Origin: Antedon mediterranea
Taxonomy: Eukaryota; Echinodermata; Crinoidea; Comatulida; Antedonidae
Direction: 5' to 3'
Assembly: GCF_964355755.1 (NCBI RefSeq)
Contig: NC_092675.1
Span: forward strand, 22,236,412-22,300,411
Length of the DNA: 64,000 nucleotides
Of the stretch, positions 18,405 through 54,171 are shown in pieces. The stretch's first letter is position 1. Each line of letters opens with the position of its first letter. The notes beneath the pieces are model-generated. The model was not told the DNA's origin. It saw only the letters and a program-made list of their open reading frames with translations, and searched no databases. Position numbers and translations under genes: made by a program.

Positions 18405-18548
18405 CAAAATGTACGGTAGGGTATACTGTAGGCCTACTCAACTACCAGGGAAACAAAATGTACGGTATGGTCTGTAGGCCTACTCAACTACCAGGGAAGC
18501 AAAATGTACGGTAGGGTATACTGTAGGCCTACTCAACTACCAGGGAAG
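18405..18548 (+). repeat. Three-copy tandem repeat, 46-49 base unit
   Basis: Copies start at 18405, 18454 and 18500. Each reads CAAAATGTACGGTAGGGTAT (middle copy slightly shorter), then CTGTAGGCCTACTCAACTAC and CAGGGAA. High identity suggests recent expansion. Each unit contains one TAGGCCTA. Confidence 0.85.
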
Positions 18549-38300: not shown

Positions 38301-40072
38301 ATAACACATGTTTTTTTTTTACAATTGCGCCCTCTATAAAACATTGTCTCGTTAAATTTTATATCAAAGTCTCGCCTATTATCAAAATGATATTCATAAA
38401 CTATTTGCGTTATATTTATACACAATACATGATCTTACACCGGGCATATGAATGTTTAAAAAATTCTTTATAAATTAATTTAACAAATATTTTTTTAAAT
38501 ATGGATATTCTATTCTATCTCTATCTGCTTTGGAATGTGGATTAGAATCGAATAGCAAATGAGACAATCATAATATAAAACCATTAATTTTTTTAATTAA
38601 AAAAAATTGATATTATACATTGAAATTGACGATTTATTACATAAAACCAGGGAAGAGTTAAATTAACTCTTCCTTGATAAAAGAGGTACTGTAATGATAA
38701 AAACAGGTTAGCGAATAATATAATTCAATAGAATAATAAAATTATCAAATCAAATGAAAAATACTACTGTAACTCATAGGCCCTAGGTTGTCGCAAATTC
38801 CCCCTATCAAACTTTTACAGAACGTCTTTTGAAAATGAAGTAAATTGAAAGCTTAATCGTAGTTTATTCATCCACACTTGATCATCATCAATATTGGTTT
38901 GTCATCGTCGCGAATATATCCAGTCTAAAATGTCCTCACCTAGAAAATAGACGAACTCGGTTAAAGCAAATGTTATTTTTAACTTTTATTTCAAAAACAG
39001 TATTAATCATGTAGTTGTAGTACTGTACAGACGGTGTTGTGTTTAAAATGCCATGTGTACAAACAATAATTTACTATACAAATATTTATACCATTTCAAA
39101 TTTAACAGGCCTATCATTCATTAAAAAGCATTTTTATTAATTAAAAACAGTATAAAAATAATTATTGACAAAAGTTTAATATTAATATATATTTAAAATA
39201 ATAAATGCAGCTTGCGTGAACCAATAACAATTACCTTTAATTTGACACTTTCTACATTTTACAAATTCTACAAACATTTTAAATATCAAACCTTACCTAA
39301 CATGATGTTGGTCCATTTCATGCCTATCTTATCTGGATAAACCAACATTGGCCTAATTTCCTTTCACAAGAGCACATCAATTAAAAAACACCCACATCAC
39401 TTAATGGTACAATCCATATTTCCTAAAGCATACGACCATATTAACATACCACCACCATCATCATTTCTGATTAGTGTGTTCAATCATAGTCAATTTACTT
39501 CTATTGACTATGGTTCAATGAATGTTATGTATTTGAATTGTAAGGCTGTTCTCAAAGATAGTTCGGCTAATTTTTGTTGATGATCCAGGTAAAGTTGGCA
39601 TGAAATAAACAATTAAAAAGAGTATATGATGGTAATAAAAAGAATATATATCAACCCTGAGACTATTACAATTAGGTTACAAATTAAATAACAATTAAGG
39701 TATATCCTTATTTTATCTTTTTACTCTTTTCTACTTTTAACCTCTTTCAAGTTATAGCATTGTATAAGATATAATATTATAATAAATTAATAATACGTCT
39801 ATTTATATTTAATTGTAAACTATATTATTCTAAATTTCCCAAGCAATATGTTTGTATATTTGTGTGTAAATTTAATAATATACTTAAATAATAGTATAAT
39901 TACAGCAACCATTTTTAAATGGAATTTTATATTTTTTTAACTTTTTTTATATCAGAATGTAAATTTTGCGCAATTCAGATTTTTCTGCAATGTCACTTGT
40001 TTTTATAAACCAGAATTGAATTGAAGAGTGAAGATAGTCACACAAAAGTCAAGACAAGGATATCCCATATAA

Positions 40073-51845: not shown

Positions 51846-54171
51846 TTAACCCTTCAATTCTTCTTTTTCAGCTCTTATTCTCTTCCTTTTAGCTCGCTCT
51901 AATAACCGCTTTTCTCTCTCAAATTCCTTCATTCGTATAACAAAGCTGAAAAGATAAGAAATAACAAATTTAGTTATCATTTGGTTGGAGACATGTATGT
52001 ATATCTAAAAACACAATTTTTCAATTGTCACGCAGCATAGAAAGATCACACACACTGTACCATACTGTATGCTGCATCGATACCTCATCATGGATATTCC
52101 TATGACATCATTTAAACTTGGTGTGTGCTTGGTCAGCAGTTAGATTTGGGAGTGCTTTGAATTCATGAAAATTGAGGAATACTCATTTAAAAAGAGACAG
52201 TTATTATTATTAATAGTTGTTTATCAAAAATAACACTTACTCATCAAATTCGCACTGATCATATTCATGTTTAGCATGTTCACAATGAAAACCTAAAGGA
52301 AACTGATCACGACGGCATTTTCGATAAGATATTAAAAGATGAGCACAATAATCTCGGTCTTTCCAATTCAGATTTGCATTATTCATTTCTTCTTCTGTTG
52401 CAACCATCACTGTAGTGTAATGAAAACAAATGTTTAGATTATAATTTCAACCAATTATTAAATTAAATTACATGTCCGGTTTGAGGTTGCTACTGGTGTG
52501 TGGCTTGAGTAAAAAATGGGGGAGCCCCATGCCAGATAGATACGCCAGATGTGTATTTAATATTTTCTAAAGGAATTTAGAGAAATAGGACACTAAATGC
52601 ACAGTTGAGTAAAGTCTCACAATTGTCGTATTCGAGTGGACCGTTGAGTAGTTTTTCCGTTGAGTACTTCTTTAACGGAGTATTTTGAGCGTTGAGATTG
52701 TTCTTAATGAAAAAGCTTTCGTTGTCAACGTTTTATATTCGAATGATATTCTGTTGAGCACAAATTTACAATTGGAATACAAAAAGTACTCAACGAATCT
52801 TTACGTTGACAACGAAAGTTCCCAATCGAATACGATAAATCACACACCTGAGGTGAGGCTCATGCTTTTTTATTCAAGCTCCCACATCACACACAGACCT
52901 CAAATTTTACGCTTTTTTACCAATCACAATATTTTTTAACAATTACTTCAAAACAACGTAAAAACTAACTTTTTGTTGAGTATGTTAAAAAATTGTCCTG
53001 GCCGTTTTTTGTTTTTTTTTTAGTTGTGTTGTGAATGATGATTTACAAAAAAAGTGTGCAAATTCAATATTTTAGTTAGGCCTAGCCCTAGACTAGACAG
53101 TAGAGAGGGCCTAGTTGAACAGCTAGGTAGGCCTATACTGTCTATGTTATGCGCGATTTGAACGATTTGCGCAATTTGAAATTGCGCAAAAAAAATCCTT
53201 GCGCAATTTGAATTGAAACATGTGTTTCAAATTGCGCAAGCAACGTATTAAATTGCGCAAGTAATCTGCAAATTGCGCAAGGTTTTTCCGACAGATTGTG
53301 AAATCATGCACACCCATATTTTTATAGTAATTTCTAAGAATGATTCAAAATTAAAGATAAATATCGCATTTCCTTATTTTAGTAGTGCAAATATTGTTAT
53401 AAGTTAGCATACCGTCGAAGAACCGACGAAGGAAAACGAAGCGGTGGTGTTCCACCAGGCGGGCGCGGCGCGGGCGGCCGGCTATACTACTCTAGCCTAG
53501 CTAGGGTCTGGACTACTGATACTGACTAGGTTACATGGCCTAGCTTAAACTAATATTAAAAACTTAAAAAGTGAGTATTAAACATTATCTTCATTGAAAT
53601 GGTCTTATTTATATAATAAAAATAATACTAAATTTTAAACTCCTCTGCCTAGGCCTAGCCTAGCCATGTATGGGAAAATTTACAGTTCGTTTTCAAATTG
53701 CGCAAAGGTGTCATATTGCGCAAGAACTATCTTGCGCAATTTACAAATTGTGCAGCGCAATTTAAAATTGCGCAAAGATTTTCTTGCGCAATTTGAAATT
53801 GCGCAAGTTGATTGCGCAATTTGAAATTGCGCAAAAAAATCCTTGCGCAATTTAAAATTGCGCAAGAATTCTTTTGCGCAATTTCAAATTGCGCAAGGAT
53901 TTTTTTGCGCAATTTCAAATTGCGCAAATCGTTCAAATCGCGCATAACATCTATATAGGCCTACAGTAAGCGCTGCATGTAGTATACACTCTACTAACTA
54001 GTAGGTAGACCTGGCCTAGGCCTAGCCCAGCAGTTCCAGCAGTGACCATACAAAAATACCTCGTTCTTCTCGTCCATCAGGAAACCCATAAAGAGGATCA
54101 AAAGTCGGGTCAGTCCCTAGCGTCGGCGCCGTATCAGGATGTATGAAATAGTGAGAGACATAATGTCCCAT
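51846..54171 (-). CDS. NDUFB7: NADH:ubiquinone oxidoreductase (complex I) subunit B7
   Basis: Three coding exons on the minus strand (54060-54171, 52241-52409, 51846-51945) give 126 residues against 137 in human. Diagnostic features are an initiator MG (Gly2, the site of N-myristoylation in the family), YGFPDGREER, VMVATEEEM, the paired CX9C motifs (C59/C69 and C80/C90) that form two disulfides after Mia40-dependent import, and FVIRMKEFEREKRLLERAKRKR at the basic C-terminus. The protein is an accessory subunit on the intermembrane-space face of the complex I membrane arm. Intron 1 (1.65 kb) is unusual: it contains a 214-bp inverted-repeat element, a GC-rich patch near 53408-53480 and a large inverted repeat packed with TTGCGCAA palindromes. 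The coding exons themselves look intact. Confidence 0.95.
52624..52837. mobile_element. Short inverted-repeat transposon, copy 1 (TGTCGTATTCGA ends, AAT duplication)
   Basis: A 214-bp element with ends TGTCGTATTCGA and TCGAATACGATA, flanked on both sides by AAT. Inner inverted repeats (CTTTCGTTGTCAACG against CGTTGACAACGAAAG, and GTTGAGTACTTC against GTACTCAAC) let it fold on itself. A second copy lies at 61683-61905. It sits in NDUFB7 intron 1. It carries an open frame, which I read as a by-product of the repeat. Confidence 0.75.
53144..53950. mobile_element. Inverted-repeat element packed with TTGCGCAA palindromes (NDUFB7 intron 1)
   Basis: The ends are near-perfect inverted repeats starting ATGTTATGCGCGATTTGAAC and continuing for about 70 bases. 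The octamer TTGCGCAA occurs six times at the left (53167-53280) and 14 times at the right (53698-53927), usually in pairs such as TTGCGCAATTTGAAATTGCG. The interior (53290-53690) has an AT-rich part, a GC-rich patch at 53408-53480 and AGGCCT runs. Short open frames across the right cluster encode only a repetitive peptide and are not counted as genes. Best read as a non-autonomous foldback or MITE-like element; no transposase was seen. Confidence 0.7.

Follow-up and report, generated by a model that had tools for sequence, protein, structure and literature searches.

A dense cluster of the palindrome TTGCGCAA inside the first intron of NDUFB7 raises the question of what such a cluster is: a regulatory platform for this gene, or a piece of something that occurs elsewhere in the genome as well. 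We addressed this in a 64-kb window (the whole stretch of DNA that was analysed) and in the 354-Mb genome from which it comes.

A motif cluster inside an 805-bp element

The window is AT-rich (GC = 0.32) and holds 21 copies of TTGCGCAA, 20 of them clustered and the remaining one at 39966. The sequence-only reading had counted 20 perfect sites in two arrays and a ATTGCGCAAT at 53811; we recovered the same count and the same positions (Table 1), and ATTGCGCAAT has its sole occurrence in the window there. That reading had also proposed that a shuffled expectation near 20 would remove the signal. In 100 shuffles of the window we observed a mean of 0.83 copies and at most 3, which is far from that figure. 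Dinucleotide shuffling of 805 bases (n = 1000; 53146-53950, offset by one base from the element) gave a mean of 0.21 and again a maximum of 3. With 20 sites observed against a maximum of 3, we rejected chance as the origin of the cluster. In its natural order, this 805-base stretch contains no 8-mer that differs from TTGCGCAA by exactly one mismatch.

The placement of the cluster in NDUFB7 intron 1 was confirmed by a hand-joined exon reading, which matches the Pfam NDUF_B7 profile over positions 1-63 of 63 (94.2 bits, E 3.8e-27). The gene lies on the minus strand, and its first intron (54059-52410) contains the element.

The arrays belong to a sequence bounded by inverted ends and flanked by a short target site duplication. 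Its span had been given as 53144-53950, which is nearly right: each side takes in one base of the TCTA duplication. The inverted match is accordingly 51 bp with this extra base and 50 bp inside the element. The claim that the inverted repeat takes in the entire element is only partly right: it holds for the ends, and no inverted partner for ~53281-53697 was present among the 25 longest of 75 inverted pairs. Within the right array, motif starts from 53768 onward are 13-16 bp apart and mostly alternate between 15 and 16, corresponding to a 31-bp unit. Elsewhere in the window, at 18405-18548, a 49-bp tandem unit is present in three copies.

Table 1. Coordinates, in the window, of the element and of the neighbouring NDUFB7 exons.
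Feature	Position	Strand	Remark
Non-autonomous DNA transposon	53145..53949	+	805 bp, TGTTATGCGCG...CGCGCATAACA
Left target site duplication	53141..53144	.	4 bp, TCTA; G before
Right target site duplication	53950..53953	.	4 bp, TCTA; T after
Left terminal inverted repeat	53145..53194	+	50 bp perfect, ~68 bp at 99%
Right terminal inverted repeat	53900..53949	-	50 bp perfect
Left array	53167..53280	.	6 perfect TTGCGCAA
Right array	53698..53927	.	14 perfect TTGCGCAA
Inter-array stretch	53281..53697	+	inner part varies among subfamilies, unlike the arms
NDUFB7 coding exon 1	54060..54171	-	splice site read by eye
NDUFB7 exon 2	52241..52409	-	splice sites read by eye

The element is one copy of a young repeat family

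A genome search, in which 40 of 438 candidates were scored, gave 40 nearly complete copies at 99-100% identity, one of them the copy in the window. Bases 5-45 of the end, a string of 41 bases, match exactly at 512 places in the genome, 257 forward and 255 reverse; the reversed control has none. The search for other copies that the sequence-only reading had proposed thus yields many of them genome-wide. These hundreds of relatives indicate that the TTGCGCAA cluster belongs to a repeat family and is most likely not a special enhancer of NDUFB7, and the 512 end copies led us to reject a single-locus enhancer as its origin. The further statement that few natural loci carry so many sites does not hold in this genome, which contains those 512 end copies and 11,438 TTGCGCAA, compared to 3,269 occurrences of the reversed word.

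A large share of the genomic TTGCGCAA may be derived from the family, since 46 of the 93 distinct places listed in C1:1-2.84 Mb fall in three clusters. These start at 683118, 1330398 and 2620338, in each case some 20 bases inward of a family end. On the same contig, C1:920068-938511 carries 12 TTGCGCAA spaced 1.3-3.2 kb apart, mostly by ~1.5 kb, which suggests a tandem array unrelated to the 805-bp element.

We excised 48 copies (L001-L048), chosen from the best BLAST hits or from exact matches to the 41-base end; one (L040) was dropped as its right-end core was not found, leaving 47 with both end cores. Relative to the majority sequence, 38 copies (subfamily A) differ by 0-1.3% substitutions and nine (subfamily B) by 6-7%; the selection on good matches or exact ends biases this sample towards young, intact copies. 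Judged by these substitutions, the family looks recently active. The labels A and B, and C and D below, were coined in the present analysis. The copies carry 15 to 21 TTGCGCAA each, and in five of the 47 the right array is shorter by 29-31 alignment columns; array size shifts in steps of about 31 bp.

Termini and target sites agree with Ginger2/TDD transposons

Exact 4-bp duplications flank 40 of the 47 copies and exact 5-bp duplications three, two of which are not independent since they come from copies with nearly the same flanks (L023 and L047); the remaining four have neither. When flanks were paired at random, exact 4-bp duplications averaged 2.3 with a maximum of 7. The length of the duplication is somewhat ambiguous: 24/47 copies fit 5 bp if the first T of the element is counted into it, and three of the 47, with TATATA-type sites, would fit 6 bp. 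L023 and L047 are a B-type and an A-type copy with near-identical flanks, and their 5-bp duplications coincide when one locus is reverse-complemented, so that either the same target was used twice in repeated sequence or there was an exchange between copies.

A purine precedes the duplication in 42/47 copies and a pyrimidine follows it in 42/47. The commonest exact duplication is TATA (7/40). Position by position, T, A, T and A are found in 24, 31, 29 and 23 of the 47 copies, and 8/47 left flanks read TATA; in AT-rich DNA such as the window, the TATA component carries less weight than the flanking R and Y. All 47 copies start with TGTTAT, while 46 end with ATAACA and one (L031) with ATGACA, in rows that had been picked by an intact core beginning with the last two letters of the terminal six.

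Ginger2/TDD transposons are described as having TGTNR termini, 4-bp duplications (5 bp in TDD-4/5), an RTATAY target and inverted ends of ~50-180 bp (Bao et al. 2010, PMC2836005). The element shares each of these features: TGTTA...TAACA ends, 4-bp (40/47) and 5-bp (3/47) duplications, R and Y on either side of the target, and inverted ends of 50 bp perfect and ~68 bp at 99%. Our limited searches revealed no transposase gene with these ends, and the superfamily assignment is therefore made from ends and target; on that basis the element agrees with a Ginger2-like, non-autonomous transposon. Ginger1, whose duplications are CCGG or CCGT (PMC2836005), does not fit, as no CCGG, CCGT or ACGG duplication occurs in the 47 rows.

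The closest comparison is Ginger2-1N1_NV, which has the same termini, duplications and RTATAY-like target; its inverted ends are about as long, and it lacks a transposase gene (PMC2836005). It measures 252 bp compared to 805 bp for our element, whose arms in addition carry 20 TTGCGCAA, partly in 31-bp units, a feature that the parts of that account available to us do not mention. Among the titles listed for Ginger2 elements and MITEs, for bZIP binding of TTGCGCAA and for subterminal repeats, none describes the family, although a published account may exist.

Other transposons resemble the element in part. hAT transposons make 8-bp duplications. The hAT element Hermes also has short motifs repeated inside its ends, some forming quasi-palindromes, which its transposase binds, but its motif is AAGT, and the likeness lies only in the way of working (PMC10368747). 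Galileo and Foldback-like elements share internally repetitive inverted ends with a varying number of repeat units; Galileo, however, belongs to the P superfamily and its inverted ends average 668 bp, and our comparison for P-type features was by duplication length only (PMC3573991). IS481EU elements have TGT...ACA termini and, in some families, 4-bp duplications. They come from parabasalids, and their duplications are often ~15 bp (PMC10045372), whereas those of our element were compared at 3 to 6 bp only.

The motif as a candidate transposase-binding site

Subfamilies A, B and C have both TTGCGCAA-bearing arms in common, but no clear similarity links the middle of C to that of A or B. In a fourth group, D, a diverged version of the left region is present. 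We compared motif and spacer positions in 65 grouped loci (38 A, 9 B, 10 C and 8 D), which provided 36, 8, 7 and 5 usable left arms and 38, 9, 6 and 0 usable right arms, respectively; loci L040, L054-L056, L058, L059, L070 and L073-L081 were ungrouped. Motif columns were set from the A majority, and tests were run on the A-C pair and on two within-group tables of C only. The A and C majorities differ at 0/143 motif and 11/319 spacer positions (Fisher p = 0.02). In the left arms, the corresponding motif and spacer counts are 0/47 and 5/182 for A versus D and 0/47 and 4/182 for C versus D. Within A, substitutions affect 0/1728 motif versus 19/6586 spacer positions on the left and 6/4152 versus 55/5678 on the right. 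Within C, the right arm shows the same direction (6/504 versus 28/722, p = 0.004) and the left arm no clear difference (5/321 versus 34/1414, p = 0.53). In the left arms of B (3/384 versus 4/1464) and D (2/235 versus 3/910), motifs changed at a higher rate than spacers, at tiny counts. The motif-conservation signal in these alignments is modest, and homogenisation of the arrays could also make the motifs alike.

Since the arms are shared while the middles differ, and since the changes between A and C fall in the spacers and not in the motifs, TTGCGCAA is most likely a subterminal transposase-binding site. It has been suggested that repeats in inverted ends or subterminal regions act as secondary transposase sites, seemingly a convergent trait (PMC3573991), and the Hermes transposase binds its subterminal repeats (PMC10368747). 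We favour, with a probability of about 0.8, a recent insertion into NDUFB7 intron 1 of a non-autonomous (MITE-like) cut-and-paste element with Ginger2/TDD-type ends and target, for which an unseen integrase-like transposase would use TTGCGCAA as its subterminal sites. The transposase, supplied by an unseen partner element, would recognise the TGT...ACA tips; the arrayed palindromes would serve as its subterminal binding sites, and might load several transposase subunits and help to pair the ends. One option named by the sequence-only reading was a transposon whose transposase binds the motif. That the element is a transposon is supported by its many copies, its target duplications and inverted ends, and the arms that the subfamilies share.

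The other options of that reading were an intronic enhancer and a sink for bZIP proteins. In this view, the array would be a platform for C/EBP-type bZIP factors that enhances NDUFB7 from within the intron or, over hundreds of copies, soaks up bZIP proteins. In keeping with this, TTGCGCAA is the reported consensus of C/EBP alpha and beta, with structures of both proteins bound (PMC10941009), the element starts ~110 bases into the intron from the end of NDUFB7 exon 1, and the window copy has 20 perfect sites within the range found across the family. The element is, however, a genome-wide repeat placed by an RTATAY-like target preference. Moreover, TTGCGCAA was outperformed in one binding assay, in which TTACGTAA was bound 1.4-fold more strongly by C/EBP alpha and 3.8-fold more strongly by C/EBP beta (PMC10941009). 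Enhancer and sink seem unlikely explanations of the cluster.

It is similarly doubtful that the arms are kept for a fold-back structure, a DNA cruciform or an RNA hairpin, instead of for sequence-specific protein binding. The right arm, read as NDUFB7-sense RNA, does fold strongly (-147.5 kcal/mol compared to -73.7 in shuffles, z = -15.6), but arrayed palindromes would be expected to fold in this way in general, and folding alone leaves unexplained why the same 8-mer is retained while the A-C spacers change. More speculative than either is a scenario in which a recent burst of the transposon scattered thousands of perfect C/EBP-type palindromes over the genome that host C/EBP-family proteins bind, so that the element borrows host bZIP proteins for its movement, or rewires or buffers the bZIP network; we regard this as very unlikely.

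Search for an autonomous partner

For the favoured transposon reading, we looked for a partner using patterns in which the same ends or arms run into a different interior, with the known subfamilies excluded. The patterns gave 5, 38, 1, 2, 80, 3, 2 and 16 matches. We read four of the 38, 20 of the 80 and both matches of one two-match pattern. These limited, partial searches of the genome revealed no transposase gene with family ends. The first 24 loci (4 + 20) are copies of ~0.4-1.3 kb, except for three without a second end in the stretch examined. These three (L073, L074 and L075) were extended. Nothing integrase-like was seen by eye among the frames listed for the 1.7-kb locus L074, and L075, with ends ~2 kb apart, showed no frame of at least 150 residues. 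Of the two further loci, one is a typical B copy; at the other, L080 (C7:5217600-5220900), a right arm that lacks its left partner directly follows a 1.4-kb tandem duplication with 99% identity. After extension, L073 (C7:10527149-10533600) proved to be a family copy with a nested Gypsy-type retrotransposon that has a 1091-residue open frame.

A Pfam integrase search of the genome, in which 150 of 838 candidates were scored and four loci examined, likewise yielded no H2C2 zinc finger and DDE integrase with family ends. At the four loci, RNase H- or reverse-transcriptase-like frames lie beside the integrase, and we read them as Gypsy type. At C9:5060566-5085216, four integrase matches lie in 1516-residue open frames on one strand, ~8-9 kb apart, as if several retrotransposons stood in a row.

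Perfect inverted ends are not expected of an LTR. We rejected the weakest alternative, in which a Gypsy-type retrotransposon left the copies behind as solo LTRs, as extremely improbable: TG...CA ends with 4-5 bp duplications would suit it, Gypsy LTRs also have the TGTNR end pattern (PMC2836005) and Gypsy-type reading frames exist in the source genome, but the 50-bp perfect ends are inverted in 47/47 copies (rows selected for both ends), no two direct copies around gag-pol were noticed among loci L001-L081, and the Gypsy element in L073 is itself enclosed by the inverted ends of a single copy.

Implications

A striking motif cluster thus turns out to be part of a young transposon family whose anatomy can be read, and the locus is an example of how a repeat can resemble a regulatory element when viewed in a single window. 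If host bZIP proteins bind TTGCGCAA, the family would have dispersed their binding sites en masse. If TTGCGCAA is the transposase site, the 47 copies would form a natural series of arms, with 15 to 21 sites per copy, that could address the number of subterminal sites required by a Ginger2-type element.
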